Assembly: GCF_015694425.1 (NCBI RefSeq)
Contig: NZ_JADQDN010000002.1
Location: 496,001 to 560,000, forward strand
Length of the DNA: 64,000 bases
Reading direction: 5' to 3'
Source of the DNA: Microvirga terrestris
GTDB taxonomy: Bacteria > Pseudomonadota > Alphaproteobacteria > Rhizobiales > Beijerinckiaceae
Below are positions 5,619 through 51,845 of this stretch, piece by piece. The stretch's first letter is position 1. Each line of letters opens with the position of its first letter. Below the pieces are notes generated by a model. The model ran no database searches and was not told where the DNA came from. It saw only the letters and a program-made list of their open reading frames with translations. The position numbers and the translations under genes are program-made.

Positions 5619-5632
5619 GCGATCTATCCGAC

Positions 5633-5646: not shown

Positions 5647-5650
5647 TTAA

Positions 5651-5678
5651 GGCTCGGCCACATTAGCCGAGCCTTTTT
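5651..5678 (+). terminator. Rho-independent terminator of the phasin pair
   Basis: An 8-bp perfect stem (GGCTCGGC 5651-5658, GCCGAGCC 5666-5673) with a 7-base loop is followed by TTTTT. It ends one base before the ATG of the NUDIX gene. Confidence 0.88.
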
Positions 5679-5679
5679 C

Positions 5680-6111: not shown

Positions 6112-6429
6112 ACGGTTTCCGCCTGTCGAACCAGCAACTGCCCGCGTCAAGAAAAAGGCCTCACCCTGTGCGGATGAGGCCAAGTCGTTGTCTCTTAACT
6201 TGAGGCTGGAAAGCCTAACGTCACGGGCTGATGTGCACATAACCGCCAGAGGATCTCAACCCGCACCCCGGCATCATGGTTGATGAAAAGTAAAAATTTA
6301 TAAAGCATCAATCATGTTTCCAGTGGTTACATCCAAGCATATTGCAACATTCTCTCACATTATTTTATGACCTCAGCGACAGGCAATTCATGCCTCGCGA
6401 TTTCTGGCTCACACGTACGGAATACAATC
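6112..6429. other. intergenic region upstream of the Omp gene
   Basis: 318 bases without a gene. It holds a hairpin (GGCCTCA/TGAGGCC, about 6156-6180) that would terminate leftward transcripts, since its A-run precedes the stem. It also holds an AT-rich stretch at 6280-6365 that is the likely promoter area of the outer membrane protein, including TTGATG (6280-6285) and CATCAA (6306-6311) as an inverted pair. No convincing -35/-10 pair was found. Confidence 0.5.
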
Positions 6430-7137
6430 ATGCGTAAATCTGCTCTTGGACTGCTCGCTGCCACAGCGGCTCTCGGCCTTGCGGTTTCGAACGCCCATGC
6501 GGCCGATCTTCCGTCCCGCTATTCCCCTGCGACTTCCTACAATGCACTTCCGGTCTTCACCTGGACCGGCTTCTATGCGGGCCTCAACGCAGGCTATGCC
6601 TGGAACATGGGTGACAGCCGCTTCTACGATCCGACTTTCGGCAGCATTCCCGGCCGGCGCCACGGCGGCTTCGTCGGCGGCGCACAGGCCGGCTACAATT
6701 ATCAGTTCGGCATGTTCGTGGCCGGTGTGGAGACGGATCTCCAGTATGCTGCCGTCGGCAACAAGGGCGCATCCTATGGCACGACCTATTACCCGGGTGA
6801 CTCCGATGGCTTCTTCGGCACCATCCGGGCCCGCGCCGGCGTGGCCCTCGACCGCGCTCTGGTCTACGGCACGGCCGGCTTCGCCTATGGCGATGTGGGC
6901 GGAAACAGGGGCATCGATCCGATCCTCGGGCATCATTCCGGCGATGAGGTCAATTGGGGTTGGACCATCGGCGGCGGCGTCGAATACGCGATCACCAACA
7001 ACTTCACCGCCAAGGTCGAAGGCCTTTATGTAGATATCGACACAAAGGACAATTTCGACCAAGGCGGCCGCGTCAGCGTCAACCGCGATGCCGAGTTCGG
7101 CGTGCTGCGTGCGGGCGTGAACTACAAGTTCAATTGA
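6430..7137 (+). CDS. Omp25/31-like outer membrane beta-barrel protein
   Basis: 235 residues from the ATG at 6430; an in-frame ATG at 6367 would place 21 polar residues before a clear signal peptide. The signal is MRKSALGLLAATAALGLAVS with cleavage after AHA at about residue 23. The mature start ADLPSRY and the following FTWTGFYAGLNAGYAW are hallmarks of the Omp25/Omp31 porin-like family of Hyphomicrobiales. Alternating beta strands with Gly-rich turns run to the end, and the last residue of FGVLRAGVNYKFN follows a barrel-terminal pattern. These are abundant 8-stranded surface proteins with structural roles. A terminator follows at 7165-7189. Confidence 0.9.
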   Translation: MRKSALGLLAATAALGLAVSNAHAADLPSRYSPATSYNALPVFTWTGFYAGLNAGYAWNMGDSRFYDPTFGSIPGRRHGGFVGGAQAGYNYQFGMFVAGVETDLQYAAVGNKGASYGTTYYPGDSDGFFGTIRARAGVALDRALVYGTAGFAYGDVGGNRGIDPILGHHSGDEVNWGWTIGGGVEYAITNNFTAKVEGLYVDIDTKDNFDQGGRVSVNRDAEFGVLRAGVNYKFN

Positions 7138-7164
7138 TCATCCGACACTTCTCGAAACACGAAG

Positions 7165-7189
7165 GCCCGGTGGCAGCACCGAGCTTTTT
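7165..7189 (+). terminator. Rho-independent terminator of the Omp gene
   Basis: GCCCGGTG (7165-7172) pairs with CACCGAGC (7177-7184) except for one mismatch, loop GCAG, followed by TTTTTC. Confidence 0.8.
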
Positions 7190-7215
7190 CGTTTCGGCAT
7201 GGGCCTGCTGCCGGA

Positions 7216-7470
7216 TCAGGGGTCGTTCACCGCCAGAGGCGTTTGAAGCCCCTGCATCTCCACGCGCTTGAGAGCGAGCAGCCGCCTGGCGGCAACCCCG
7301 CCTGGATCGGAGGCGTAGAGCCTGTCATTGAGCACTTCGATCTGCCAGCGTTGCAACTCGAGCAATGCTCTTAAAGACCTCACCCGAATTTGGAGATCGA
7401 GAGCATCCTTTAAGGGATCCGGGTCGTCGCCTGTCATGGAACCATGACTGCCAATGTCGCGATGAATCAT
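7216..7470 (-). CDS. small hypothetical protein
   Basis: Up to 84 residues; an internal ATG would give a 73-residue protein beginning MTGDDPDPLKDALDL. The middle part (LKDALDLQIRVRSLRALLELQRWQIEVLNDRLYAS) has a heptad-like leucine pattern and could form a helical hairpin or coiled coil. I do not recognise a family. There is no overlapping competitor gene and codon use looks normal, which is the main support. No clear Shine-Dalgarno sequence is seen for either start. Confidence 0.42.
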   Translation of the reverse strand: MIHRDIGSHGSMTGDDPDPLKDALDLQIRVRSLRALLELQRWQIEVLNDRLYASDPGGVAARRLLALKRVEMQGLQTPLAVNDP

Positions 7471-7782
7471 GTCTGAACGCGGAATAGAGTGAACGTCAAT
7501 CGGATGGGTCTGCCACGAACAAGCCCGGCAGGCAGGGCCATACGCAAATTAACACTTGTCACGACACCGAACGACGACTCGTGCATGGGCAATCATGGAT
7601 GCTCTGCTGTGATCGATGTAAATGTCTTACAATTCCTGGGAACTGGCAAGTCTCGAACAAGCGCATTGGGCGCGACCTAAAGGCCAAGGTAGGCGCTTTT
7701 GAGGCTGCAGCCCTCATCGGACCGGAACCGGGAGTGAAGTTCGGCAGTTCCACCGGCAGAGCTTGTAAAAGAGAGCGACCTC

Positions 7783-7956
7783 ATGCCAGACACTCACCAT
7801 GAAATGGAAGCAGACAAAATTCTCTCTGCCCTGAGCCTGAGCGCTTCAGATGAACAAGCCCTGCTGCAGGGCCGACGGCTGCTAGTCGAAGCCTTGGAAC
7901 AAGCGGAGCAGCGCGGGCGCCAGATCCTTGGAAATCAAAAGGAATCGAGCGGCTGA
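7783..7956 (+). CDS. small acidic hypothetical protein (57 aa)
   Basis: 57 residues starting MPDTHHEMEADKILSALSL. The protein is soluble, acidic and helical (LLQGRRLLVEALEQAEQRGR). Support comes from its codon pattern and from lying in otherwise empty DNA between two small genes. The upstream GAGAGCGACCTC is only a weak ribosome binding site. No family recognised. Confidence 0.4.
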   Translation: MPDTHHEMEADKILSALSLSASDEQALLQGRRLLVEALEQAEQRGRQILGNQKESSG

Positions 7957-8171
7957 CACATTCTCAAGAATGAGGCGGTTCAGCTTTATGGTCCTGGGAT
8001 TCAATCTCTGCTAACGCTGTCAACATAAGCTCCACTGCAACCGGCATACACTTCCCTGCGACATTGACAGCGAGGAACGGCCCACGCTGCGGCACGTTCC
8101 TTCCCTGTGCGGTAGAGCACAGCGGGCAAGCCTCGGATGTGGTGATCTTCTGGGCGTTGGAGAATAGGTTG

Positions 8172-8480
8172 ATGCGCTCCCTTCTGATGACAATCCTGGC
8201 TGGCACGCTCACCACGGCAGCAATCGGTGGCGCTCAGGCTCAATCCGCCGACACCCGCATCGCCTCCATGCCTTTCGGCGAGTGCCTCTCCATCATCAGC
8301 GAAGCTGCACAGGAGATGGACCAGGAGCCTGTCAAGCTCGTCAACACGAACGATGTTGTGACAGCTCGCATCCAAGCCTCGGACGGTTTCGTCACTGTCT
8401 CGTGCGATCGGAGTGCCAGCAAGATCACTCTTACCAAAAGCGCCGTTCCGGAAGCCGCCGGAATGACTGCAGCGCGCTGA
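8172..8480 (+). CDS. small exported protein of unknown function
   Basis: 102 residues from the ATG at 8172. The signal peptide is MRSLLMTILAGTLTTAAIGG with cleavage after AQA near residue 23. The mature part has two cysteines (FGECLSII and TVSCDRSAS) that could form a periplasmic disulfide. The remainder, DGFVTVSCDRSASKITLTKS, looks like beta strands. An open frame extends upstream to 8064 but has no signal-like start. No known family recognised. It stands alone, with 215 bases before it and about 420 after it. Confidence 0.6.
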   Translation: MRSLLMTILAGTLTTAAIGGAQAQSADTRIASMPFGECLSIISEAAQEMDQEPVKLVNTNDVVTARIQASDGFVTVSCDRSASKITLTKSAVPEAAGMTAAR

Positions 8481-8901
8481 TCGCAACTGTCACTAATCCC
8501 GCATTCGAAAAACGGTGAGCTTGAGACCGTTTGTTCTGCTGATAACCAGCAGCGAGTGACACATTTACAAGAGAATAAAGTTCATCTGGTCCCCATCGAC
8601 TGTGAACAGACTATGTCTCTATGATTGCTGCTAACATGCGGTGCAGCCGAACTCTCGATCAGTAGAAAACCTTTTGCATCGCTCTGAATTTCTCGGCCGC
8701 AGCCCTGCACTGATTGCAGTCTTCTAATGAGCCTGTCGTATTCAGGTCATTGTTTGCTGGTGAAGTCGATATACTTGGCAATGGAGCTGTAGACTGCACG
8801 ATAGAGTTCCAGGAACTCGGCGTGCTACCGGATGATTTAGTCTCTGCCGCATGAGCCGAACGCGTTTGAGTTGATCCATTTTCACACAATGAGGAAAGAC
8901 A
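8481..8901. other. 421-base gap before the hemerythrin-phasin gene
   Basis: AT-richer than its surroundings. A minus-strand frame of 76 codons (8659-8889) is open but is Ser/Thr rich and unlike any family I know. GAGGAAAGACA just before 8902 is the ribosome binding site of the next gene. Otherwise no structure was found. Confidence 0.4.
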
Positions 8902-9687
8902 ATGCCTTCAAAACATTTCAGCCAGACACCGCCTGATAAGGCGAATGACCTTTTCGACAAAATCCTTGCAACCTCAGACAGCGCGACCAAAACGCGTGAA
9001 CGCCTTTTTGCGGATCTGAAGGACGAACTGGAGCTTCTTGCCAGCTTGCAGGAGCAGCATCTCTTCCCCATCCTGCAAAAGCACGGGATGCAGGAGCTGC
9101 TCAGCGCCTCCATCAGCGATAACCAGGAGACAGCCTTGCTGCTGGGAGAGCTCGAGCGCATGCAAAAGAGCAGCAGCGAGTTTCTCGGCAAGGTCGCCGA
9201 ACTCAGAAAGGCTTTCCAACAACATATCCGGGATGACCGGAAACAGCTTCTCCCGGCCGTTCTCGAGGTGCTTAGCGATGAAGAGGCTCAAGCCGTTGCA
9301 GACCAGGTCGAGGACGAGTTGGCAAACCTCAATGACCTGAAGCATGTCGAGACCAGCGCTCCTGCCGATATAGGCGCGGCTGTCCAGCGCAGTCTGGATG
9401 GAGTCGATGAAGTAGTTCGCCTGGGAGCCGATAGCACGCGTACCATGACGGTCGGCGTCCAGGATCTCTCGCAAGAATGCCTGAGCATGAGCCAGAAGCG
9501 GTTGCAGACGAATCTGGATGGATGGACCAAGCTCGCTCAGTGCCGGTCGCTCCAAGATCTTACTAAGACCCAGGTCTCTCTCATGCAGGAAAACTTGGAG
9601 CTGACGCTTCACAACAGCTTCCGGTTGGCTGACTTGGCGGTAAAGCTCGCCGAAAGAGCAACGTGGCACGGCGCCATCAGGCGCTAG
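8902..9687 (+). CDS. hemerythrin-like / phasin two-domain protein
   Basis: 261 residues, start ATG 8902 with AGGAAAG upstream. Residues 10-135 resemble an HHE (hemerythrin) helical bundle, with EQHLFPILQKHG (about 50) and QQHIRDDRKQLLPAV (about 110) supplying His and acidic ligands. The His usually found early in the first helix is replaced by Glu or Leu (LKDELELLASL), so iron binding may be altered. Residues 175-255 are a phasin domain: STRTMTVGVQDLSQECLSMS followed by LQDLTKTQVSLMQENLE, the phasin_2 pattern. It probably sits on polyhydroxyalkanoate granules and could sense or buffer oxygen, nitric oxide or iron. That activity is inferred. Confidence 0.75.
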   Translation: MPSKHFSQTPPDKANDLFDKILATSDSATKTRERLFADLKDELELLASLQEQHLFPILQKHGMQELLSASISDNQETALLLGELERMQKSSSEFLGKVAELRKAFQQHIRDDRKQLLPAVLEVLSDEEAQAVADQVEDELANLNDLKHVETSAPADIGAAVQRSLDGVDEVVRLGADSTRTMTVGVQDLSQECLSMSQKRLQTNLDGWTKLAQCRSLQDLTKTQVSLMQENLELTLHNSFRLADLAVKLAERATWHGAIRR

Positions 9688-9759
9688 GCCTCCCATAACG
9701 TCTTTCCGCAGCTGCGGATGGAAATCATCCTTCTCTGGCTCAGGATGGCAATCGAAGGT

Positions 9760-9796
9760 GGAATGGCCACGGGATGACTTAGTCCTGGGCCATTCC
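9760..9796 (+). repeat. hairpin downstream of the hemerythrin-phasin gene
   Basis: A perfect 9-bp inverted repeat (GGAATGGCC 9760-9768, GGCCATTCC 9788-9796) with a 19-base loop. No T-tract follows, so it is an RNA end or stability element rather than a typical intrinsic terminator. Confidence 0.45.
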
Positions 9797-9908
9797 TACC
9801 CGCTCCTCAAGACGGCCTTGAGCGCTCTCTCTAACCTTCAGAGCTCACCATCAATGGACAGGCAGCTTGCGCGGTCTATATGTGGAGTATTCCTGACGAG
9901 GCGCATGC

Positions 9909-10160
9909 ATGCCCGAAACCGACCAGCAGACTGATAAGGATCTGGACGAGCTTGACACCGCAAGCCACGTCAATTTCCGTGATTACCCGAGTTCCGGCCT
10001 AGTCGTGATCGCCGCCATAAGCTCGGGACTAGGCTGGATGTTGTACAAATGGCTCGGTCGGAAGCGCAAGGCGCGCAGCGATGCGTCGGACGAACTTGCA
10101 CAACCTGAAGTGACCTCGCCCCCAGCGGTTCTGCCGGTCGATAAAAAACCCGAACGCTGA
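9909..10160 (+). CDS. small single-span membrane protein
   Basis: 83 residues. Residues 1-25 are acidic. Residues 29-47 (SSGLVVIAAISSGLGWMLY) form one Gly/Ser-rich membrane helix, followed by the strongly basic KWLGRKRKAR, so by the positive-inside rule the C-terminus is cytoplasmic. The tail is Pro-rich. It resembles the anchor segment of stress-associated ElaB/DUF883-type proteins but lacks their ribosome-binding helical domain, so no family is assigned. It precedes the 26-residue peptide gene by 82 bases and may share its transcript. Confidence 0.6.
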   Translation: MPETDQQTDKDLDELDTASHVNFRDYPSSGLVVIAAISSGLGWMLYKWLGRKRKARSDASDELAQPEVTSPPAVLPVDKKPER

Positions 10161-10230
10161 AAACTCACCCTCTCGGACGTGCCGCAGCGCACGGCTTCCT
10201 GATGAGCCTTGGTTTACCTTTGGGAATCAG

Positions 10231-10238
10231 CAGGAGGC
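10231..10238 (+). promoter_or_regulatory. strong Shine-Dalgarno of the 26-aa peptide
   Basis: CAGGAGGC lies with its AGGAGG core six bases before the ATG at 10243. It is among the best ribosome binding sites in the window and is the main reason to believe the tiny frame. Confidence 0.65.
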
Positions 10239-10242
10239 TCTC

Positions 10243-10323
10243 ATGGCTTACAGTGCTGTTTCATTCGTCCTTGGTATTGTTGCTCCTCTCGCACTGGTGA
10301 GTTGGCTGCTCGTACTGCATTGA
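10243..10323 (+). CDS. 26-residue membrane microprotein
   Basis: The frame ATG 10243 to TGA 10321 encodes 26 residues that are almost entirely one hydrophobic helix (SFVLGIVAPLALVSWLLVL), ending in His. A near-perfect Shine-Dalgarno sequence precedes it. Such peptides include regulatory subunits of membrane enzymes and type I toxins. No antisense RNA, paralogue or partner is visible, so no role is assigned. It is too short to be found by ordinary gene callers. Confidence 0.55.
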   Translation: MAYSAVSFVLGIVAPLALVSWLLVLH

Positions 10324-10508
10324 AGCAGCAAAGATCAGCTTACCAATCGACAGCACAAACCTGAGAGAGCATTCTGATCGGCAAGCATATCAAAGGATTT
10401 GGCGCAATACCTTCCGTTTCGTAACTAACCATTTACGTTTCAGGCGCAGCCTCAATAAGTGCCTGACTGGCACGATCCTCCCTCCCGGTCGCAAAAGCGA
10501 CCCCCCTC

Positions 10509-10538
10509 GAGCGCCATGTGAAACGGCGCTCTTTCTTT
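10509..10538 (+). terminator. putative intrinsic terminator
   Basis: GAGCGCC (10509-10515) pairs with GGCGCTC (10525-10531), then TTTCTTT. It would end transcripts of the small membrane-protein genes upstream. Confidence 0.55.
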
Positions 10539-10875
10539 GCATTCCTCTGGAGAGAATGAGCTGAATAGGGCTCATCGTTAGGCAAACAAAGGATTATCTA
10601 CGCTCCCTTTGGCCGCATATATTCTCGAACGTCACTGGGGCGCATTCCCAATATTGTTACGCTTCGAACAGCCTAGAATAAAAATACAAGCCCTGCCACG
10701 ATGTTGCCTTATTCCACGATCAGAACGACTTCAACGGACGAACAGATATCGATTCTGAAATCCGCAGTATTATGAGCACCACAAGAAGTGCTCACCTGTA
10801 TCGATAGTCGCCTAGTGTTTTATCTCTGCGTAGTCGCAGCAGGTTCTTCATAGAACTGCATAACTATTATTCAGA

Positions 10876-10904
10876 AGCCTCAAATAAGAGGCTCGCTTAT
10901 TTTT
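10876..10904 (+). promoter_or_regulatory. hairpin plus T-tract in the alginate lyase leader
   Basis: AGCCTC (10876-10881) and GAGGCT (10888-10893) with loop AAATAA, followed by CGCTTATTTTT. It ends 12 bases before the lyase ATG. It may be a weak terminator that isolates or attenuates the gene. Confidence 0.45.
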
Positions 10905-10916
10905 GGGGCAGACAAT

Positions 10917-12497
10917 ATGACTTTGAATCCTTCGGTCGCTCCCGGCGGCAACTTTGACTTGTCCAATTGGAAGATCACCCTTCCTGTGGATGCCAATGGC
11001 GGCATCAGCGGCACGGCCGTCGAGGTAAAGAACCTCTCCACCTACCAGAACTCCAAGTACTTCTACACCGCAGCCGATGGCGCCATGACTTTTATGGCTC
11101 CGGTTGAGGGTGCGACCACCAGCGGCTCGTCCTACGCCCGATCCGAATTGCGTGAGATGAACGGCACCGCCAACGCTGCATGGAACCTCCAGACGGGCGG
11201 CTTCATGAGCGCCACTCTCGAAGTCGATGCCGCTCCCAACCGCGAAGGCATGGGGGGCCGCGTCATCGTCGGCCAGATCCATGGCAAGAACGACGAGCTG
11301 GTTCGACTTTACTGGGAAAATGGCAAGCTCTATTTCGCCAACGATCAGGCCGGCTCCAGCAACAGCGAGACGAAGTTCTACTTCGTGAATGCGTCTGGTC
11401 AGCAGCCGAGCGTTTCGCTGGACGAGCGCTTCTCCTACACGATCAACGCCAAGGGTGACACCCTTGAGGTGACGGTCTTTGCTGACGGCGAGATCTATAA
11501 GTCAGTCAGCAAGATCAACAGCGTGTGGCAGTCGGACTCATTCTACTTCAAGGCTGGCGCCTATCTCGGCGCGAATGAGACCAATGGCACAGGCTACGGC
11601 CAGACCTCATTCTACGCCCTGAGCTTCAATCACAACGGCACGGTGACGACGCCGACGCAGCCAACTCAACCGGCTCCGCTTCCTACCCCGAATCCTGACT
11701 CGAAGGATAATGCGGTCATGGCATCCGACGACCGGTATGCGGCCGTTGAGGATCAGGCTCTGACCGTCAGTGCGTCACAGGGCGTTCTGGTCAACGACGC
11801 CGCCCCCGATGGAGGCAAGGTGGCCATCTCCGGCACGTTCGCCACTGCTCAGGGCGGCAGTGTGAAGATCAGCGCCGATGGCTCCTTCGTCTATACCCCG
11901 AAGGCCAACTTCTACGGCTCGGACAGCTTCAGCTACACCGCCAAGGACGCAGATGGCGACACCGATACCGGCGCCGTGACTCTCGCCGTTGCCGATGTGG
12001 CGGAGACGGGTTCACCGTCGTCCCCGATGCCGACCACCTCGCGGCCGAGCACGACGAAGACGATGTCGGGCACGAGCAGCGCTGACCGCCTGACGGGCAC
12101 GTCCGGCAACGATCTGATCGACGGCAAAGCAGGCGACGACATGATCTGGGCCAAGAATGGTAGCGACGTGCTGACCGGGGGCACGGGCAAGGACACGTTT
12201 ACCTTCGACACTAGCCCGAGCAGCAAGAACGTGGACGTGATCGTCGACTTCGATGTGGTCGATGACACAATTCGCCTCAACGACTCGGCGTTCTCCAAGC
12301 TCAAGTGGGGCAATCTGTCGGCCAGCAGCTTCATGGTTGGCACCAAGGCTTTGGATTCCGACGACCGCATCATCTACGACAACAAGACCGGCTCTCTGTC
12401 TTACGACGCCGATGGCTCGGGTTCAGGCGCGGCAGTCAAGTTCGCCGTGATCGAGAATCTCGCCAAGCTTACAGCGGCCGACTTCCTCGTCATCTGA
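10917..12497 (+). CDS. secreted alginate lyase (PL7) with Ig-like and RTX domains
   Basis: 526 residues without an N-terminal signal peptide. Residues 1-235 are polysaccharide lyase family 7: SYARSELREM (Arg75), VIVGQIHG (Gln120, His122) and YFKAGAY (210-216) are the three PL7 signature strands lining the active cleft. A Thr/Pro linker (about 242-262) leads to a tandem-95/cadherin-like beta domain (about 270-365, ending DSFSYTAKDADGDTDTGAVT). Residues 385-425 hold glycine-rich calcium repeats (GNDLIDGKAGDDMIWAKNG and GSDVLTGGTGKD), followed by a serralysin-type C-terminal domain. The RTX tail with no signal sequence means type I secretion. It beta-eliminates alginate or a related polyuronate outside the cell. 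No type I exporter lies in the window. Confidence 0.88.
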   Translation: MTLNPSVAPGGNFDLSNWKITLPVDANGGISGTAVEVKNLSTYQNSKYFYTAADGAMTFMAPVEGATTSGSSYARSELREMNGTANAAWNLQTGGFMSATLEVDAAPNREGMGGRVIVGQIHGKNDELVRLYWENGKLYFANDQAGSSNSETKFYFVNASGQQPSVSLDERFSYTINAKGDTLEVTVFADGEIYKSVSKINSVWQSDSFYFKAGAYLGANETNGTGYGQTSFYALSFNHNGTVTTPTQPTQPAPLPTPNPDSKDNAVMASDDRYAAVEDQALTVSASQGVLVNDAAPDGGKVAISGTFATAQGGSVKISADGSFVYTPKANFYGSDSFSYTAKDADGDTDTGAVTLAVADVAETGSPSSPMPTTSRPSTTKTMSGTSSADRLTGTSGNDLIDGKAGDDMIWAKNGSDVLTGGTGKDTFTFDTSPSSKNVDVIVDFDVVDDTIRLNDSAFSKLKWGNLSASSFMVGTKALDSDDRIIYDNKTGSLSYDADGSGSGAAVKFAVIENLAKLTAADFLVI

Positions 12498-36693: not shown

Positions 36694-37746
36694 ATGGAAC
36701 TTAAGAAGACCTTCGCTGCGGCGACCATGCTGGCAGGCACCATGACGGCCCTGTCCTTTATGTCTGCCGGAGCGGCCCAGGCTCAGGCCCAGGGTGAACT
36801 CGTCATGTATTGCGGCGTGCAGGAAGAATGGTGCCGCGCCATGACCACCGCGTTCGAGCGTGAGACCGGCATCAAGGTCTCCATGACCCGCAAGAGCGCA
36901 GGCGAGGTTTATGCCCAGGTGAAGGCGGAAGCCGCCAACCCCCGGGCCGACATTTGGTGGGGCGGCACAGGCGACCCCCATATGCAGGCGGCTGAAGAAG
37001 GCCTCACCGTGGAGTATAAATCTCCCAAGCTGGGCGAGTTGCAGGATTGGGCCGTACGCCAGTGGGAGCAGTCCAAGCAACGCACAGTCGGGATCTATTC
37101 CGGCGCCCTTGGCTTCGGCTACAACACCGATCTGGCTAAATCCAACAATATCGCGGAGCCAAAATGCTGGGCGGACCTGCTCAAGGCTGAGTTCAAGGAC
37201 GAAGTGCAAGTCGCCGACCCGAACTCATCCGGCACGGCCTACACGCTTCTTGCCACGATCGTTCAGATCATGGGCGAGGACAAAGGCTTCGAGTATCTCA
37301 AGGCCCTGCACAAGAACGTGAACCAGTACACCAAGTCTGGCGCGGCTCCCGCCAAGGCCATGGCGCTCGGCGAGACGACCGCCGGCATCGCCTTCATGCA
37401 CGACATCGTGACGATGGTGGTCGACAAGGCACCGGTGAAGGTCGTGGCTCCCTGCGAAGGCACGGGCTACGAGATCGGCTCCATGTCGCTCATCAAAGGC
37501 GCCAAGAACATGGACAACGCCAAGAAGTTCTACGACTGGGCGCTGACGGCAGATGCGCAGAAGCTCGGCGCAGACGCCAAGTCCTATCAGGTTCCTTCGA
37601 ACAAGAGCACGCCGATCCCGCCACAATCTCCGAAGCTCAGCGACATCAAGCTGATCAACTTCGACTTCGCGAAATACGGCTCCTCGGCAGAGCGTAAGCG
37701 CCTCCTGTCCAAGTGGGACAACGAGGTGAAGAACCTGCCGAAATAG
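36694..37746 (+). CDS. ABC transporter periplasmic binding protein, AfuA/FbpA-like
   Basis: 350 residues, ATG 36694 with GGGAGG seven bases upstream. The signal peptide ends near AQAQA (about residue 31). The mature protein begins GELVMYCGVQEEWCRAM, in the family annotated as ferric iron binding. Tyrosine pairs that bind iron in FbpA are not evident. His236-Asp237 (FMHDIV) and Glu260 (CEGTGYE) keep the 24-residue spacing of the His205/Asp206/Glu229 set I recall from Actinobacillus AfuA, which binds sugar phosphates. The ligand may therefore be a phosphorylated sugar rather than iron. A strong hairpin terminator separates it from the permease. Confidence 0.82.
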   Translation: MELKKTFAAATMLAGTMTALSFMSAGAAQAQAQGELVMYCGVQEEWCRAMTTAFERETGIKVSMTRKSAGEVYAQVKAEAANPRADIWWGGTGDPHMQAAEEGLTVEYKSPKLGELQDWAVRQWEQSKQRTVGIYSGALGFGYNTDLAKSNNIAEPKCWADLLKAEFKDEVQVADPNSSGTAYTLLATIVQIMGEDKGFEYLKALHKNVNQYTKSGAAPAKAMALGETTAGIAFMHDIVTMVVDKAPVKVVAPCEGTGYEIGSMSLIKGAKNMDNAKKFYDWALTADAQKLGADAKSYQVPSNKSTPIPPQSPKLSDIKLINFDFAKYGSSAERKRLLSKWDNEVKNLPK

Positions 37747-37758
37747 TCGGCCCGGATC

Positions 37759-37803
37759 GCCTTCGGCGGGGCGGCTCACGTCTCGCCGAAGGCTTTATTT
37801 TTT
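37759..37803 (+). terminator. intra-operon terminator after the binding-protein gene
   Basis: GCCTTCGGCG (37759-37768) pairs perfectly with CGCCGAAGGC (37784-37793), followed by TTTATTTTTTT. It should let the binding protein be made in excess over permease and ATPase. Confidence 0.85.
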
Positions 37804-37850
37804 GTATGGCAGGCCGGTTTCTTCGCCGGCCATGAGGCGGGAATACAACG

Positions 37851-44009: not shown

Positions 44010-44381
44010 ATGACACCGGACGACGTTCGACGTCTGGCCCTTGCTCTGCCGGCGGCCAGCGCGAGCACTCACATGAACCGTCCGGATTTTCGTGTGCGGA
44101 GCAGAATCTTTGCGACGCTCCATCCGGACGAGCAGCGCGCCGTCGTGAAGCTCGCCCCAGAAGATCAACAGATGCGTGTCGAGTCGGAGCCTCTCGTCTT
44201 TTCTCCCGTAGCCGGCAAATGGGGCCTTCAGGGCTGGACGAATGTCGATCTCGCACACAGCGACGAGGTGACATTGCGAAGCGCCCTGCTCGCCGCTTGG
44301 TGTGCGGTCGCGCCCAAACGCCTTGTCGCCGAAGCGGTTGGCACAGGGCCAACCGCCTCGACGAACCAGGATCTGACTTAA
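44010..44381 (+). CDS. MmcQ/YjbR family protein
   Basis: 123 residues. MTPDDVRRLALALPAAS, the central RSRIFATLHPDEQRAVVKL and GWTNVDLAHSDEVTLRSAL fit the MmcQ/YjbR (CyaY-like) fold, a small DNA-binding-like family of unknown role. It ends with a four-base tail-to-tail overlap with the iron alcohol dehydrogenase gene. Confidence 0.85.
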   Translation: MTPDDVRRLALALPAASASTHMNRPDFRVRSRIFATLHPDEQRAVVKLAPEDQQMRVESEPLVFSPVAGKWGLQGWTNVDLAHSDEVTLRSALLAAWCAVAPKRLVAEAVGTGPTASTNQDLT

Positions 44382-45541
44382 ACACGCCCAGTCAGCGCAT
44401 CCTCGAAGAGCTTGCGAGCGCTCTCCTTGGTGATCGGCACCGGGTTGCCCCCGGCGGTTGGGTCGTTGGGCGCCATCTCGGACATCTCGTCGAAGCGGGC
44501 GCTGTCGACCTTCAATCCTTCCAGCGTATGCGGCACGCCGAGATCCTTGCGCAGCTGCAGCACCCAATCGAGGAAGGCCTGGAACGAGGGCTCGAGACCG
44601 ATATAGGCAGCGAGCCGCTCGATCCGCTCTTCAATAGCCTTGCGGTTATAGACCAGCACGTAGGGCATGAAGACCGCATTGGTCAGGCCGTGATGGGTGT
44701 CGTAGAGCGCACCGGTCGGGTGCGACAGGGCATGGATCGCGCCAAGCCCTTTCTGGAAGGCGGTGGCCCCCATGGCGGCCGCCGACATCAGCTGCGCGCG
44801 GGCTTCGATATCCTTGCCGTCCTTGTACGCGCGCGGCAGGAATTCCTTCACGAGGCGGATGCCTTCCACCGCGATGCCGTCGGCCATAGGGTGATAGCCC
44901 GGCGCGCAATAGGCTTCCAGGCAATGCGCCAGCGCGTCCAAGCCCGTGCCCGCCGTGATGTGGGGCGGCATGCCCACCGTCAGCTCCGGATCGCAGATGA
45001 CGATCTTCGGCATCATCAGCGGATGGAAGATCACCTTCTTGGTGTGCGTGGCCTCCTGCGTGATCACGCCGGCGCGGCCCACTTCCGAGCCCGTGCCGGC
45101 GGTCGTTGGCACGGCGATAATCGGCTGGATGCCGTTCGGGTCGGCGCGGGTCCACCAATCGCCGATATCCTCGAAGTCCCACATGGGCCGGGTCTGGCCC
45201 GCCATGAAGGCGATGACCTTGCCGGCATCTAGCGCCGAGCCGCCGCCGAAGGCGACAACACCATCATGTTTGCCGGCTTTTAGGGCTTCAAGTCCCTTGT
45301 ACACGTTGGTCTCGACAGGGTTCGGCTTGATGTCGGAGAAGATCGCCGCTTTGAGGCCGGCGGACATCAGTTGATCGAGCGCCGCCTTCGTCATCGGTTG
45401 TGTGGCCAGAAACGGGTCCGTCACGATGAGCGGTGCCTGCATGCCGACCGACTTGCAGGCTTCCGCCAGTTCCGAGATGCGGCCTGCGCCGAAGCGGATG
45501 GCGGTGGGGTAGTTCCAGTTGGAGCGGGGTGACGGGGTCAT
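44378..45541 (-). CDS. iron-containing alcohol dehydrogenase
   Basis: 387 residues. Group III alcohol dehydrogenase: NAD-binding FGGGSALDAGKVIA, VPTTAGTGSEVGRAGVI, and metal ligands in GTGLDALAHCLEAY and AIHALSHPTGALYDTHHG. It is the last gene of the five-gene amine operon, 11 bases after the aldehyde dehydrogenase. In that context it probably oxidises the hydroxyl of a gamma-glutamylated amino alcohol to the aldehyde. That substrate is inferred from the neighbours. Confidence 0.9.
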   Translation of the reverse strand: MTPSPRSNWNYPTAIRFGAGRISELAEACKSVGMQAPLIVTDPFLATQPMTKAALDQLMSAGLKAAIFSDIKPNPVETNVYKGLEALKAGKHDGVVAFGGGSALDAGKVIAFMAGQTRPMWDFEDIGDWWTRADPNGIQPIIAVPTTAGTGSEVGRAGVITQEATHTKKVIFHPLMMPKIVICDPELTVGMPPHITAGTGLDALAHCLEAYCAPGYHPMADGIAVEGIRLVKEFLPRAYKDGKDIEARAQLMSAAAMGATAFQKGLGAIHALSHPTGALYDTHHGLTNAVFMPYVLVYNRKAIEERIERLAAYIGLEPSFQAFLDWVLQLRKDLGVPHTLEGLKVDSARFDEMSEMAPNDPTAGGNPVPITKESARKLFEDALTGRV

Positions 45542-45552
45542 GATGCTTTCAA

Positions 45553-46944
45553 TCAGATCTGACGGAGGTGATAGGATTTCGGACGGGTAAGCGACTCGTA
45601 GGCCAGCCGCGACAGGCTCGCGCCACGGCCGGTGTCCTTCACGCCGGTCCAGGCGAGCGCGGGATCGAGATAGTCGCAGCGGTTCATGAACACGGTGCCG
45701 GTCTCGAGCTTCTCGCCGATGGCTTCCGCCGCATCGACGTCAGACGTCCAGATGGCGGCCGAGAGGCCATAGGGCGAGTCGTTCATCAGGCGGATCGCCT
45801 CCTCGTCGCCGCTCACCTTCATGATGCCGACCGTGGGGCCGAAGCTCTCCTCGCGCATCACGCTCATGGAATGATCCACGTTGGTCAGCACCTGCGGCGC
45901 GAGATAGGCGGTGTTTCCGGTATCTGCCGCAAACTTCCTGGTATCGATATGCGCCTTCGCGCCCTTCGCCACCGCTTCCGCATTCTGCCCACGTACGAGG
46001 TCGGCGAAGCGCTTGTGGGCCATGGGACCAAGCGTCGTCGCCTCGTCGAGCGGATTGCCGAGCACGTACTTGTTCACGAGATCGACCGCGCCTTCGACGA
46101 AGCGATCATAATGCTTCTCGTGCACATAGATGCGCTCGATGCCGCAGCAGCACTGGCCCGAGTTGAAAAAGGCGCCGTCCACGAGATTCTCGATGGCATG
46201 GTCGAGATTGGCATCCTGCCGCACATAGGCTGGATCCTTGCCGCCGAGCTCGAGCCCAAGGGAAGTGAAGGAGCCTGCCGCCGCACGCTCGATGGAGCGC
46301 CCGCCGGAGACGGAACCGGTGAAATTGCAGTGATCGACCAGACCGCCGCCAAGGATCCCGCCCGTCTGGTCGTGGCTCAGATACAGGTTCTGGAACAGGC
46401 CCTTCGGCATGCCCGCCCGGTCCATGGCCATCTGGAAGCGCTCGCCCGCCAGCACCGTCTGCGAGGCGTGCTTCAGGAGCACTGCGTTGCCGGCCATGAG
46501 CGCCGGCACGATGGTGTTGATGGCCGTGAGATAGGGGTAGTTCCACGGCGCGATCACGAGCACAAGGCCGACCGGCTCACGCTTGATCATGCGACGGAAG
46601 CCCGGCTTCTCGTCGTCGGCCGGGATGGGCTGCAGGCTCTTCTCGGCAATGCCGATCATGTGGCGCGCCCGCTCCTCGACGCCGCGGAACTCGCCTCCAT
46701 AGCGCACCGGGCGGCCCATCTGCTGGGCGATCTCGGGAACCACCTCCTGGTTCATGGCGAGCAGCGCGTCGAGGAAGGCCGAGACCCTGCTCGCGCGCTC
46801 GGCGATGGTCGTGTTGCGCCATGCCTTTTGCGCCTCGCGGGCGGAAGCGATCGCCGCATCGATGGCGGCCTCGGACAGGATGGGGCGGCGGACGAGTTCG
46901 CGTCCGTCGATGGGGGAAATGCAGACGATGTCGGTATCGACCAT
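45553..46944 (-). CDS. NAD(P)-dependent aldehyde dehydrogenase
   Basis: 463 residues. Cofactor-site APWNYPYLTAINTIVPALMA, general base Glu in LGLELGGKDPAYV, and the nucleophile in FFNSGQCCCGIERI, where the second Cys of the triplet fits FxNxGQxC. The three adjacent cysteines are unusual. NDSPYGLSAAIWT and the C-terminal DTGRGASLSRLAYE are common to amine-linked ALDHs. Between the GS-like ligase and alcohol dehydrogenase genes, it likely oxidises the gamma-glutamyl amino aldehyde to the acid. Confidence 0.92.
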   Translation of the reverse strand: MVDTDIVCISPIDGRELVRRPILSEAAIDAAIASAREAQKAWRNTTIAERASRVSAFLDALLAMNQEVVPEIAQQMGRPVRYGGEFRGVEERARHMIGIAEKSLQPIPADDEKPGFRRMIKREPVGLVLVIAPWNYPYLTAINTIVPALMAGNAVLLKHASQTVLAGERFQMAMDRAGMPKGLFQNLYLSHDQTGGILGGGLVDHCNFTGSVSGGRSIERAAAGSFTSLGLELGGKDPAYVRQDANLDHAIENLVDGAFFNSGQCCCGIERIYVHEKHYDRFVEGAVDLVNKYVLGNPLDEATTLGPMAHKRFADLVRGQNAEAVAKGAKAHIDTRKFAADTGNTAYLAPQVLTNVDHSMSVMREESFGPTVGIMKVSGDEEAIRLMNDSPYGLSAAIWTSDVDAAEAIGEKLETGTVFMNRCDYLDPALAWTGVKDTGRGASLSRLAYESLTRPKSYHLRQI

Positions 46945-47016
46945 GGTGTGATGCCTGAAAGACCATGATCCGCGAGGACCATGGCCTTCTCCTGTGATTG
47001 AGTCCTGAAAAGGCTT

Positions 47017-48387
47017 TTAGATGATCTCGAAGTAACGGGCGAGCTGCCAATCGGTGATAGCCTTGCGCGCCTCGCGCTCCTCCCATTCTCGGGTTGCAGC
47101 GTAATGGTCGACGAAGGTGTCACCGAAGAGCTGACGGGCGGCTTGCGACCCTTTCAGCCGCTCGGCGGCCTCGCCGAGGGAGCGCGGCAGTGCCCGATCC
47201 TTCGGGTGCTCGACCGCATAGGCATTGCCCTGGATCGGCTCGCCCGGATCGATCCGGTTCTCGATGCCCCAGAGGCCAGAGCCGATGGCGGCGGCAAGGG
47301 CGATATAGGGGTTGATGTCGGCGGCCGCGACCCGGTACTCCACCCGCTGCGACTTCTCAGAACCTGGAATGACGCGCAGTGCCGTGGTGCGGTTCTCCAC
47401 ACCCCAGGCGGAATCGGTGGGGGCCCAGAAGCCGGGGATGAGCCGCGTGTAGCTGTTCACCGTGCAGGCGACCATGGCGAGAAACTCGGGCATCAGCTGC
47501 TGCTGACCGCCCACATACCAACGCATGGTCTCCGACATGTTGTGCTTGGCCTGGGCGTCGTAGAACGCACCCTTGCCGGTGCGCAGATCGCGCAAGGATG
47601 AGTGCAGGTGACCGGACTGGCCGGGCCAGTCGCGCGACCACTTGGCCATGAATGTGGCCATCCAGCCGCGGCGCTGAGCCAGGATCTTGGTATAGGTCTT
47701 GAAGAGCGCCGCCTTATCGGCGGCCTTCAACGCGTCATCAACGCGGATCGCCGCCTCCAGCACGCCGGGGCCGGTCTCCGTGTGCAGGCCCTCGATCTCG
47801 AAATCCATCGTCTTTCCGAGGTCGAGAAGCTCGTGGTAGAAATCCGCGTGCACGCCGGAGCGGAGCACCGAGTAGCCGAAGAAGCCGGGCGTGATGTTTT
47901 TCAGATCGCGATAGCTCTTCTCGCGCACGGAATGCGGCGTCTCCTCGAACAGGAAAAACTCGAACTCGGCCGCGGCCGAGACCGCGAAGCCCATGTCTTC
48001 TGCTTTTTTAAGCACCCGCCGCAGCACGCCCCGCGGACAGGCCGCCTCCGCGTAACCTTCGAACTCGGCCAGGAAGAACGGCAGGTCGTTCTCGAACGGC
48101 ACGAGCCGCATGGATTCGGGGATCACGCGCGCCGTGGCGTCGGGGTAGGCCGTATGCCAGCCGGTCAGCGTGGTGTTGTCGTAGAGCTGATCGTTGGAGT
48201 CCCAACCCAGCACCACGTCGCAGAAGCCGAAGCCTTTTTCGAGCGCGGACTCGAACTTGTCGCGGGCCATGTACTTGCCGCGCATGATGCCGTCCACATC
48301 GGTGAGGCCGATCTTCACGAAGGGCAGGTCGCGGCTGCGCACATATTCGAGCGCATCGGCGGCGTTCTTGATCTTGGGAGCGTCCAT
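47017..48387 (-). CDS. glutamine synthetase-like gamma-glutamyl amine ligase
   Basis: 456 residues. A GS catalytic fold is present: AAEFEFFLFEE holds the metal-binding glutamates, the Glu-rich ETGPGVLEAAIRVDDALKAA and GQSGHLHSSL carry further metal and substrate residues, and NPYIALAAAIGSGLWGIE is the C-terminal block. There is no Tyr adenylylation motif of GlnA. It belongs with PuuA/IpuC/GlnT-type ligases that couple glutamate to amines with ATP. The adjacent ethanolamine-type permease and alcohol and aldehyde dehydrogenases suggest gamma-glutamylethanolamide as product. Confidence 0.88.
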   Translation of the reverse strand: MDAPKIKNAADALEYVRSRDLPFVKIGLTDVDGIMRGKYMARDKFESALEKGFGFCDVVLGWDSNDQLYDNTTLTGWHTAYPDATARVIPESMRLVPFENDLPFFLAEFEGYAEAACPRGVLRRVLKKAEDMGFAVSAAAEFEFFLFEETPHSVREKSYRDLKNITPGFFGYSVLRSGVHADFYHELLDLGKTMDFEIEGLHTETGPGVLEAAIRVDDALKAADKAALFKTYTKILAQRRGWMATFMAKWSRDWPGQSGHLHSSLRDLRTGKGAFYDAQAKHNMSETMRWYVGGQQQLMPEFLAMVACTVNSYTRLIPGFWAPTDSAWGVENRTTALRVIPGSEKSQRVEYRVAAADINPYIALAAAIGSGLWGIENRIDPGEPIQGNAYAVEHPKDRALPRSLGEAAERLKGSQAARQLFGDTFVDHYAATREWEEREARKAITDWQLARYFEII

Positions 48388-48404
48388 ACGAATGACCTTG
48401 ACCG

Positions 48405-48439
48405 CAAAAGGAGAAAGGGAGCGCGGCTTACGCGCTCCC
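48405..48439 (-). terminator. terminator-like hairpin inside the amine operon
   Basis: On the minus strand GGGAGCGCG (48431-48439) pairs with CGCGCTCCC (48417-48425), loop of 5, followed by TTTCTCCTTTT. It lies between the permease stop and the ligase start and may reduce read-through or protect mRNA ends. Confidence 0.6.
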
Positions 48440-48446
48440 GAAGGGA

Positions 48447-49979
48447 TTAGTAGGACTTGTACTCGCTCTCGCCCTTGGTGAGCGCGAATTCCTCCTCCGG
48501 GGAGAGGATGAGCTTATGCCGTCCGATAAGCAGGAAGTAGGCCATCATCACGGCATAATAGACCGCGACACCGATGACAGCTGTCTTAAACACAGAGTCA
48601 GTGAACTGGAAGTAGAGCGTCACCGCCGCGATCATCATGCAGATAACCGCACCGGCGATCCCGAATGGGCTCCTATAGGGTCGATGCAGGTTCGGGTACT
48701 TCCTCTTGAGCACGATGTAGGACATGCCCTGCATGAAGTAGGCCAGCATCGCGCCAGCCACCGCCATGTTGAGCAACGTGCCGCCGATGATGCTCGCACC
48801 GGACTCGGCGCCCACCGAGAACCAGATAATCATCATCACCAGAAGGCCAAGTACCGCACCCGCGATCAGCGCCACGTGCGGCGTCTTGCGTGCGCCGTGC
48901 GTGACCGACAGGAAGCTAGGGAAATAGCCTGCCCGCGAGAGCGAGTAGATCTGCCGTCCGAACGCGAAGATGATGGTGTGGAACGAGGCAATGAGCCCAA
49001 TCACGGCAATCGCCGCCAGGATCTTCGCGATATCCGTTCCGAACAGGGTGCGGAACCCGTCGAGCAGGGGCTCGCCCGACTTGCCGAGGCCCACGGCGCC
49101 CGGCGCGATGCTCGTGTTCAGGAAAAGCACGAGGAACGCGGAGGCAATCAGGGTCAGGATCCCGGCGATGATGCCTTTGGGCATGTCCGTCTGCGGATCG
49201 TGCGACTCTTCGGCTGCAAGCGGCAACTGCTCGATGGCGAGGAACAGCCAGACCGCGAAGGGCAGCGAGGCCAGGATGCTGCCGATGCCCATAGGCAGGA
49301 AGGGACCGTTGCCGCTTGGCAGCTCTGTGCCGTCAGGCCCGATGTTCAGCGCCCAGCGCGAGAAGTCGAACTGGCCGGAGAACAGAACCGACAGGTAAAA
49401 AGCCGCGAGTACGGCAAGGGCTGCCAACGTGACGCCCACGGTGACCCTGAACGACAGTTCGACGCCGATGATGTTGAGGCCGACGAAAAGCGCGTAGCAC
49501 AGCACCCAGTACACGGGCTGGAATGCCGGCGCTGTCTCGAAGATCGCTGAGAGATACGAGCTGATGAAGAACACGATCACCGCCGGCGTGAGCACAAACT
49601 CGATGTTCTCGGCAATGCCGGTGATGTAGCCCGCCCAAGGGCCCATGGAAGTCCGGGCAAATGAGTAGGCGCCGCCCGTATGCGGCAGGGCCGGCGACAT
49701 CTCGGCGAGCGAGAAGGTCAGGCCGAGATACATGATGGCGATGATGATGGTGGCGAAGAACATCGCCCCGAAACCATTGGCGAGGCCGAGATTCCAGCCC
49801 GAGTAATGGCCTGAGATCACCGCGCCGACGCCGAGCGCCCAGAGCGACCAGACCCGTGCGTGGCGCTTGAGGCGCCTGGCTTCGAAATAGTTCTGATCCA
49901 CCGTGGTGTAGGTCACGCCGGCGTTCTGCACACCGGCTGTCGGGGCGTGAACCCCGGGATTTCCTTGTCCGACTGACAT
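48447..49979 (-). CDS. APC family amino acid/ethanolamine permease
   Basis: 510 residues from the ATG at 49977-49979 (GGAGGA eight bases upstream). There are twelve membrane helices. The first, VWSLWALGVGAVISGHYSGW followed by NLGLANGF, and LPFAVWLFLAIEQLPLAAEES, match ethanolamine permease (Eat) members of the APC superfamily. PHTGGAYSFARTSMGPWAGY is the helix-3 region. It would import ethanolamine or a related amino alcohol. It is second in the operon, 64 bases after the amidohydrolase gene. Confidence 0.87.
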   Translation of the reverse strand: MSVGQGNPGVHAPTAGVQNAGVTYTTVDQNYFEARRLKRHARVWSLWALGVGAVISGHYSGWNLGLANGFGAMFFATIIIAIMYLGLTFSLAEMSPALPHTGGAYSFARTSMGPWAGYITGIAENIEFVLTPAVIVFFISSYLSAIFETAPAFQPVYWVLCYALFVGLNIIGVELSFRVTVGVTLAALAVLAAFYLSVLFSGQFDFSRWALNIGPDGTELPSGNGPFLPMGIGSILASLPFAVWLFLAIEQLPLAAEESHDPQTDMPKGIIAGILTLIASAFLVLFLNTSIAPGAVGLGKSGEPLLDGFRTLFGTDIAKILAAIAVIGLIASFHTIIFAFGRQIYSLSRAGYFPSFLSVTHGARKTPHVALIAGAVLGLLVMMIIWFSVGAESGASIIGGTLLNMAVAGAMLAYFMQGMSYIVLKRKYPNLHRPYRSPFGIAGAVICMMIAAVTLYFQFTDSVFKTAVIGVAVYYAVMMAYFLLIGRHKLILSPEEEFALTKGESEYKSY

Positions 49980-50043
49980 TGAGTTGATCCTCCAAGAAGT
50001 TCTGCGTTTCGGGTCACGGCACATGTGTGCGCCATGCCCGTCA

Positions 50044-50832
50044 TCAGAGCGTCCGTGCCCCCTCCCTCAAAAGCGGCGCCAGACGGTTGGCCCACGACGC
50101 CTGTCCGTCTTCTGTGCGGATCAGGTCGTTGCGGATTTCGATCATCAGCGGTGGCAGACCACGCTTCTCGGCGTGGCGCTCCAGGGTGTGGAACACCCGG
50201 TCCGCTGGCGAATAGGGTTCGTTCATGCCGACGGTGAGCGCCGGACCATGTTTCAGGCCAGCCTCCACATGGCGGGCATAGCGCTCGTCTCGGTTGAAGA
50301 TCAGGCCGATCTGCCAAGGCCGCGGGACATCGCGATAGACAGGCGTGAAGGAATGGATCGACACGACAGCCCCGAGTTCGCCTGCCTCCATGCGCGAGGT
50401 CACGAAAGCATCGACCGCATCATGAAACGCATCGTAGACCTCACGTACACGATAAGCCCGCTCCTCCTCGTCGAGGTCGAGATTTCCGGTAATCGTGGTG
50501 CGCTCGCTCAGGGTCCAGATCGAATCCGACGCGGACGGGTCGCGGTTGAGGTCGAGCACAAGGCGCGAGACCGTGGCGTGAGCCAGAGGTGCATCGAGCA
50601 GCCGCGAAAGCTCCTTGGCGACCCCAAGCGCACCGGGATCCCAGGCGATGTGGCTTTCCAGTTCCAAGGGTCCGAGCCCCAAAGTACCGTAACGGGCTGG
50701 TAGGTGATTGGAGGCATGTTCGCAGATGAGAAGGATGGGCGAGCGCCCTTTCGGGTTCTCAATGGCGGCGATCGGCTGCCCTGCCGTTGCGGCAGAGGAT
50801 CCATCGGCATTCACCCGACTCGCCTGCGTCAT
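50044..50832 (-). CDS. N-formylglutamate amidohydrolase family protein
   Basis: 262 residues from the ATG at 50830-50832 with CGGAG seven bases upstream; an earlier in-frame start lacks this. The FGase fold is marked by LLICEHASNHLP, HIAWDPGALGVA, RLVLDLNRDP, VSIHSFTP and NEPYSPADRV with its metal ligands. No hut histidine-degradation genes are near. As the first gene of the amine operon it may instead cleave a gamma-glutamyl amide (glutamate plus amino acid) at the end of the pathway. The link is inferred from position. Confidence 0.87.
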   Translation of the reverse strand: MTQASRVNADGSSAATAGQPIAAIENPKGRSPILLICEHASNHLPARYGTLGLGPLELESHIAWDPGALGVAKELSRLLDAPLAHATVSRLVLDLNRDPSASDSIWTLSERTTITGNLDLDEEERAYRVREVYDAFHDAVDAFVTSRMEAGELGAVVSIHSFTPVYRDVPRPWQIGLIFNRDERYARHVEAGLKHGPALTVGMNEPYSPADRVFHTLERHAEKRGLPPLMIEIRNDLIRTEDGQASWANRLAPLLREGARTL

Positions 50833-50884
50833 GCGGTTCTCCGTCAACCTGCCCAAAAGCAGGGATTGTCCCCGGTTGAACGCT

Positions 50885-50929
50885 TGATACGTTTCTTATG
50901 GAATTCTCAGGTTCTGAAATTTCTGATAC
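50885..50929. promoter_or_regulatory. candidate RpiR operator
   Basis: The divergent gap holds the palindrome GAAATTTC (50916-50923), extended outward with one mismatch on each side, and a direct repeat TGATAC at 50885-50890 and 50924-50929. Confidence 0.38.
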
Positions 50930-50957
50930 AGCTTTTGAGAAGCGTCAAGGAGGGGCT

Positions 50958-51845
50958 GTGGATCAATCCGGCATGCATGGCGACCGTCGCCTCCCTTCAA
51001 CAGACGCACCGAGCCTCGCCGAGCGCATCCGGAGCGAGATGGAATCCTTCACGCCCAGCGAGAAGCGCGCCGCCCACCTGCTCCTGAGCCATTACCCCTT
51101 TGCCGGTCTCGATACGGTGGCTGAATTCGCCTCCCGGGCCGGCATCTCGGCGCCATCGGTGCTGCGCTTCGTCACCCGGCTCGGGTTCAGCGGATTTCCG
51201 GATTTCCAAAAGCACCTGCGGGAGGAGTTGGAGGCCCAGCTGCTCTCGCCGCTCGCGAAGGCTAGCCCGTCCGACAAGGGCCAAGGTGCCCCGGCCCTTG
51301 CCTCCTTCGCAGAGGCGGTGATCGGGAATTTGAGGGCGACGGTGGAGAACATCGCGCCGGCCGAATTCGAGGCGGTTGTGACGCTCCTGTCCGATCCGCG
51401 CCGTCACATCCACTTTACCGGCGGGCGCTTCACCGGCGCGCTCGCGCGCTACGCGGAGAGCCACTTCCGCATCGTGCGCAGCCATGTGGATTTCATCGAG
51501 GGGCAGCCGGCCCTGTGGCGCGACCGGATGGTCGAGATCGGGCGCAGGGACGTGATCGTCGCCTTCGACATCCGTCGTTATCAGGAGGATGTCACGGCGC
51601 TCTGTGAAACGGCATCGAGACAGGGGGCAACGGTGGTCCTGCTCACCGACCCCTGGCTGTCTCCCATCGCGCGCGTCGCGCGGCACGTGCTGCCCGCCCA
51701 CATCGTCGCTCCGTCCAACTGGGATTCCTCGGCAGGCCTTCTGCTGTTGACCGAGGCTCTCGTCGCTTCGGTCACCAAGCGTCTGTGGGACACGGCCAAA
51801 CCGCGCATGGAAGCGGTGGAGCGCCTGCGAAACGAAAGATCCTGA
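50958..51845 (+). CDS. RpiR family transcriptional regulator
   Basis: 295 residues from a GTG at 50958 that follows AAGGAGGGG by two bases; ATGs at 50898 and 50973 lack good ribosome sites. N-terminal HTH: ERIRSEMESFTPSEKRAAHL, DTVAEFASRAGISAPSVLRF and LGFSGFPDFQKHL. C-terminal SIS domain (about 125-270) with HFTGGRFTGALARY and DVIVAFDIRRYQEDV for ligand sensing. Divergent from the five-gene amine operon, it is its likely regulator. Confidence 0.88.
   Translation: MDQSGMHGDRRLPSTDAPSLAERIRSEMESFTPSEKRAAHLLLSHYPFAGLDTVAEFASRAGISAPSVLRFVTRLGFSGFPDFQKHLREELEAQLLSPLAKASPSDKGQGAPALASFAEAVIGNLRATVENIAPAEFEAVVTLLSDPRRHIHFTGGRFTGALARYAESHFRIVRSHVDFIEGQPALWRDRMVEIGRRDVIVAFDIRRYQEDVTALCETASRQGATVVLLTDPWLSPIARVARHVLPAHIVAPSNWDSSAGLLLLTEALVASVTKRLWDTAKPRMEAVERLRNERS

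Follow-up and report, generated by a model that had tools for sequence, protein, structure and literature searches.

A chromosomal operon of Microvirga terrestris predicted to use ethanolamine by the gamma-glutamyl route

A 64,000-nucleotide stretch of the Microvirga terrestris genome (contig NZ_JADQDN010000002.1, positions 496,001 to 560,000; hereafter, the window) carries a chromosomal operon whose genes predict gamma-glutamyl-type utilisation of ethanolamine, a reading to which we give a probability of roughly 0.85. On the minus strand, a hydrolase of the N-formylglutamate amidohydrolase (FGase) family, an APC permease, a glutamine-synthetase-like ligase, an aldehyde dehydrogenase (ALDH) and an iron-containing alcohol dehydrogenase (Fe-ADH) form one run. 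Each matches a curated family at the place given by the original prediction, which had been made from the letters of the window, and the divergent RpiR gene that it named is likewise present on the plus strand. In the predicted pathway, the permease would import ethanolamine, and the ligase, using ATP and glutamate, would form gamma-glutamyl-ethanolamide, which would keep the later aldehyde protected. The Fe-ADH would then oxidise this compound to gamma-glutamyl-aminoacetaldehyde and the ALDH would oxidise the aldehyde to gamma-glutamylglycine, from which the hydrolase would release glutamate, to be recycled, and glycine, which would enter nitrogen and carbon metabolism, while RpiR would control transcription from the intergenic region. 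This sequence of import, gamma-glutamylation, two oxidations and hydrolysis, put forward originally, is the best-supported reading, and the enzyme set agrees with the pathways set out in PMC6529630, PMC9397018 and PMC10132767.

The gene set was followed in two collections of loci, a first set of 80 ligase loci retained from 154 relatives (32 from Microvirga and 48 others) and a class survey, an even draw of 289 genomes with a ligase threshold of 1e-100, in which the neighbourhoods of 47 loci besides the window's own were inspected. Neighbourhood counts were obtained from stop-to-stop open reading frames (ORFs) and profile searches, with no gene finder. In all 32 Microvirga loci the ligase, ALDH, Fe-ADH, FGase-family, APC permease and RpiR genes were present in unchanged order, the Fe-ADH lying near the ligase and RpiR near the operon in every one. 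Because identical genes stand in identical order in 32/32 loci, the grouping is beyond chance. The ligases of these loci are 88-97% identical to that of the window, and five further genomes marked 'same genus' hold a ligase at 88-95% identity. Outside Microvirga, ligase, ALDH and Fe-ADH occur together in 40/48 loci of the first set; one of the three was missing from the other eight, six of which lie on short contigs. The importer differs among these 48 loci: some have the APC type of the window, others a second APC type or a TRAP system, and in the remainder none was found. In the class survey, 48/289 genomes carried the ligase, the window's own included. At two loci (L153, 9289-15032; L161, 9263-13897) the ligase and an ALDH accompany an importer, TRAP or APC, and the gene of a LysR-type regulator; an HpaB-type hydroxylase is encoded divergently, and no linked Fe-ADH or amidase was found there.

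Pathways of this kind are already in print. The GlnA4 protein of Streptomyces coelicolor is a gamma-glutamylethanolamide synthetase (PMC6529630), and the gamma-glutamylation of ethanolamine that the original prediction cited as proposed for Streptomyces is found in that paper. Its discussion proposes a dehydrogenase, an ALDH and a step of the FGase family (SCO1615) leading to glycine and glutamate. A figure legend of the same paper names instead a short-chain dehydrogenase and a glutamine amidotransferase, which speaks against our assignments, whereas a later review names the FGase family (PMC9397018). The SCO1610-SCO1615 region resembles the window in its ligase, its ALDH and the proposed FGase-family final step, and several Streptomyces, like the window, have a putative ethanolamine permease; the differences are another phylum and another regulator gene, sco1614. 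For Chromohalobacter salexigens, Table 2 of PMC9397018 gives a set with PF00120, PF00465, PF00171 and PF05013, four Pfam families shared with the window, but the importer there includes the TRAP binding protein Csal_0678. In Phaeobacter sp. MED193, the operon MED193_10021-10056 comprises RpiR, GGAH, ETAGA, GAADDH and GETADH (PMC10132767), so that by description a regulator, a gamma-glutamylglycine amidohydrolase, a gamma-glutamylase, an ALDH and an alcohol dehydrogenase share one cluster, as in the window; import, however, is by the TRAP system EtoVWX there and by an APC permease here, and the main text of that paper does not name the protein family of the amidohydrolase. Five proteins of the Phaeobacter operon, the amidohydrolase included, were raised on phosphatidylethanolamine, and the binding protein has a dissociation constant of 7.9 uM for ethanolamine (PMC10132767); Vetting 2015 is cited there as the demonstration of the pathway in C. 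salexigens and A. tumefaciens C58. Since an FGase-family enzyme has already been proposed for the last step in S. coelicolor (PMC6529630) and tabulated for C. salexigens (PMC9397018), the earlier remark that this would be the least described step fails. The pathway, this step included, is already described, and the Microvirga operon is a well-supported new member; a literature search on Microvirga and ethanolamine returned no title on this operon.

The ligase (47017-48387, minus strand; PF00120, 2.1e-96) would act as an ethanolamine gamma-glutamylase. It was rejected as a glutamine synthetase type I (GSI), since it scored 228.1 bits against the GlnA model TIGR00653, whose cut-off is 429.15, and has tryptophan at the E327 flap. 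Its residues were read by eye from an alignment with the genome's own GlnA (28% identity), in the GSI numbering of PMC6529630. It retains E129, E131, E212, E220, H269 and E357, metal ligands included, together with H271, R321, R344 and R359, and replaces N264 by proline, Y179 by phenylalanine and the flap residue E327 by tryptophan. The place of E327 is occupied by W296 in PauA7 and by F331 in GlnA4 (PMC6529630), and since the ligase shares its tryptophan with PauA7, its flap residue fits an amine ligase. The ammonium-site residue D50 of GSI, on the other hand, pairs with an aspartate in the ligase, so this mark of an amine ligase is not clear-cut; its counterpart in GlnA4 is D81 or D69, by the model used (PMC6529630), and the position says little about the identity of the window ligase. 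More distant relatives were seen on plasmids. At L116 (Rhodobacteraceae M382 plasmid, 8143-10356) and L119, ligases of 55-57% identity are partnered by an aminotransferase, a polyamine-type ABC importer, a P1 peptidase and a dimethylformamidase-like gene, with an FGase directly upstream and no Fe-ADH listed in L116; these clusters probably serve another gamma-glutamylated amine. Another variant of the same logic is found at L118 (Rhizobium leguminosarum plasmid, 4585-11765), where a ligase of 53% identity stands with a gamma-glutamyl-GABA-hydrolase-family gene, a GMC oxidoreductase and an aldehyde dehydrogenase.

The known lyase route was looked for in the whole genome (assembly of 4.2 Mb in 21 contigs). 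No match to the EutB family PF06751 was obtained, with a positive E. coli control; the EutBC route was thus rejected for this genome, and the original statement that no ethanolamine ammonia-lyase is present holds genome-wide. Among 149 genomes of the family, the ligase was found in 23 and EutB in 56, and the two together in a single genome versus 8.6 expected (p 1.4e-4), so in its family the ligase rarely shares a genome with EutB. The two routes differ in chemistry, the EutBC pathway being of the lyase type, but they probably share their substrate and, at some loci, a related permease. The APC permease of the window (48447-50024, minus strand; PF13520, 7.8e-35) is the sole AA_permease_2 match in its genome, and its best NCBIfam model is TIGR00908, 'ethanolamine permease', the second-best model reaching 102.5 bits. 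A homologue of it (36-37% identity) is found next to EutB or not far from it in 4/20 EutB loci, and a homologue of the second APC type (49%) in 1/20.

Further evidence on the substrate comes from the loci with TRAP importers. A TRAP binding-protein gene lies within 3 kb in 11 of the 32 non-Microvirga loci that have ligase, ALDH, Fe-ADH and enough flank. The binding protein of the Thalassospira locus L052 had 4uab/4xf5 as its only match in the PDB at 1e-20 (560 bits), and the ligase beside it is 72% identical to that of the window; seven further binding proteins of this group are 66-97% identical to the L052 protein, for which the AlphaFold2 model was poor (pLDDT 43.5). The entry 4uab is, we take it, the ethanolamine-bound form of the C. 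salexigens binding protein Csal_0678. PMC10132767 names Csal_0678 and gives the C. salexigens homologue of EtoX as an ethanolamine binder.

Several results weigh against the ethanolamine reading. The permease scored 329.5 bits against TIGR00908, under the cut-off of 381.75. The Fe-ADH (44378-45541, minus strand; PF00465, 4.7e-49, and PF25137) falls short of the cut-off in each of the 17 NCBIfam models listed for it (best 343.8 versus 500), and the ALDH (45553-46944, minus strand; PF00171, 6e-115) is under the curated cut-off in the 25 NCBIfam models listed of 44. At 1e-10, 15/20 EutB loci held no homologue of either APC type, and the TRAP binding protein was found in 0/20; these 20 loci were picked by hand from the 78 genomes with EutB. 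In the class sample the anti-association is weak, with the ligase in 48/289 genomes, EutB in 23/289 and both in 1/289 versus 3.8 expected (p 0.14), and all counts and tests ignore shared ancestry. The low permease score would also suit an operon of the same chemistry whose main substrate is another short amino alcohol (3-amino-1-propanol, 1-amino-2-propanol or serinol) and whose final amino acid differs accordingly, as would the three plasmid loci in which ligases of 53-57% identity keep company with an aminotransferase and a polyamine-type ABC importer, or with a GMC oxidoreductase. We consider this unlikely, however, since a ligase 72% identical to that of the window adjoins a binding protein closely homologous to 4uab, ligase and EutB seldom co-occur in the family sample, and the Phaeobacter operon, which shares the enzyme set, is raised on phosphatidylethanolamine (PMC10132767).

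With ethanolamine as the substrate, the FGase-family hydrolase (50044-50832, minus strand, 3' end at 50044; PF05013, 1.9e-37) would be a gamma-glutamylglycine amidohydrolase. PF05013 takes its name from N-formylglutamate amidohydrolase activity, and the gene might encode just that enzyme, merely adjacent to neighbours with which it has nothing to do; a search of 19 other genomes found proteins 36-44% identical to it in 17, in no case closer than 8.5 kb to the ligase. Against this, the hydrolase had no NCBIfam match at 1e-3, hence none to the HutG model TIGR02017, whereas the genome, which has four PF05013 proteins, encodes a separate HutG (G000:C17; 406.2 bits, cut-off 278.75) within hutI-hutH-hutG-hutU. 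The window protein was therefore rejected as HutG and is not needed in the hut operon. Its AlphaFold2 model (pLDDT 89.7) had as best PDB match 2odf, Agrobacterium Atu2144 (46% identity; TM 0.88/0.92, best-ranked chain); the Ralstonia N-formylglutamate amidohydrolase 2q7s (20% identity) is a distant match. Where the flank sufficed, an FGase is linked to the ligase in 30/30 Microvirga loci and, at a limit of 3.5 kb, in 11/32 others. In a tree of 48 sequences, which includes the window copy and 5/32 Microvirga copies and from which the genome's HutG and its C1:37153 paralogue were left out as scoring too weakly, 19/23 ligase-adjacent copies are grouped together by a branch with support 98/95. The separation is blurred by the unlinked FGases L171, L182 and L187 on the linked side, and by four ligase-adjacent copies on the other (L071, L073, L076 and, from a plasmid, L116). 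Taken together, an unrelated N-formylglutamate amidohydrolase is very improbable. The window's genome has two more FGase-family genes, separated by about 6 kb (L120; G000:C1:30687-31304 and 37153-37848), the latter with a sub-threshold HutG match of 123 bits.

An operon for the detoxification of polyamines or monoamines, like those of PuuA or PauA, is highly improbable: the ligase has the fold and chemistry of a gamma-glutamylpolyamine synthetase and matches the PuuA model NF045547 at 194.5 bits, but this is well under the cut-off of 650, no PuuB-like oxidase or PuuD-like hydrolase was found by Pfam in the operon, and an alcohol dehydrogenase suits an alcohol and not a diamine. The ligase was accordingly rejected as PuuA; the earlier claim that PuuB and PuuD are absent stands for the operon, to which this Pfam search was confined, the remainder of the genome not having been searched for them.

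Within the gamma-glutamyl pathway, the last step appears to vary between genomes. In many relatives a class-I amidotransferase (PF00117) is encoded downstream of the Fe-ADH, as in L117 (12929-13645), L055 (14036-14914) and L128 (5450-6379), which have no linked FGase. Linkage was counted in those loci that have all of ligase, ALDH and Fe-ADH and sufficient flank, allowing 3.5 kb for the FGase and 4.5 kb for the amidotransferase. All 30 Microvirga loci had the FGase only. In the 32 other loci of the first set, 11 had the FGase only, 17 the amidotransferase only, 4 neither and none both (p 1e-5), and in the 19 loci of the class survey 6 had the amidotransferase only, 13 neither, and none the FGase or both. 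When the non-Microvirga loci of the first set and the class survey were combined, p was 0.0005, and the two amidases stood together in 0/81 loci. They also differ in position, the FGase gene standing before the importer gene and the amidotransferase gene after the alcohol dehydrogenase. This pattern fits two different enzymes performing the same last step. Neither amidase was linked in 17/51 non-Microvirga loci, a class large enough to indicate that amidase linkage is often absent, and many genomes retain the group of ligase, ALDH and Fe-ADH without a link to either amidase. A regular-expression look at 33 loci without a linked FGase or amidotransferase gave 0 amidotransferase motifs and two loose FGase-motif matches inside long ORFs (L072, L131). 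Ten neighbours, chosen by hand from L065, L132, L153, L154 and L161, were scanned with Pfam, and none was an amidase.

Other counts are less favourable to such a division. With the FGase limit at 7 kb, the 32 other loci split into 2 with both enzymes, 11 with the FGase only, 15 with the amidotransferase only and 4 with neither (p 0.0008; p 0.02 combined with the class survey). The two loci holding both are L056 and L069. In the tree their FGases group with unlinked copies, and the narrower limit of 3.5 kb, which excludes them, was picked after they had been seen. The class survey also counts against the pathway reading itself: an FGase within 7 kb was found in 0/25 of its loci with ligase, ALDH and Fe-ADH, and a linked amidase of either kind was not found in 13 of the 19 with enough flank. 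We regard it as an even bet that the last step is a swap point, at which an FGase group, Microvirga included, and a class-I amidotransferase group would both cut gamma-glutamylglycine, other genomes using an unlinked amidase.

The divergent RpiR-family gene (plus strand, ending at 51845; HTH_6 PF01418 and SIS PF01380) probably starts at GTG 50958 and not at the listed ATG 50898, with a Shine-Dalgarno-like motif, AAGGAGGGG, ahead of it at 50947, and the hydrolase probably starts at ATG 50832 and not at the listed TTG 50856. The corrected starts leave an intergenic region of about 125 bases. Between them lies the single match in the window to TGWAAN6DTACA, TGAAATTTCTGATACA (50915-50930, plus strand; shuffle mean 0.05), a candidate RpiR operator. 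With a somewhat wider pattern, a similar site was found near RpiR in 28/32 Microvirga loci and in 9/20 other RpiR-bearing loci. Eight of these nine make up the full Thalassospira group, in which every locus has a pair of TGTAA-N6-TTACA sites spaced 50 bases apart (e.g. L045, L052); in Microvirga the candidate operator is usually single. The case for an operator is lessened by the derivation of the pattern from the same sequences on which it was counted, and by 4/32 Microvirga and 11/20 other RpiR loci in which no such site was found.

Microvirga are soil and nodule bacteria, and a known but lightly studied EutBC-independent route for ethanolamine emerges here as a conserved trait of the genus, found also in part of its family. 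Annotators could correctly name a gene now labelled 'N-formylglutamate amidohydrolase' where it adjoins this ligase. The swap of the final amidase is the remaining point of some interest and gives a testable dividing line between the two amidases.

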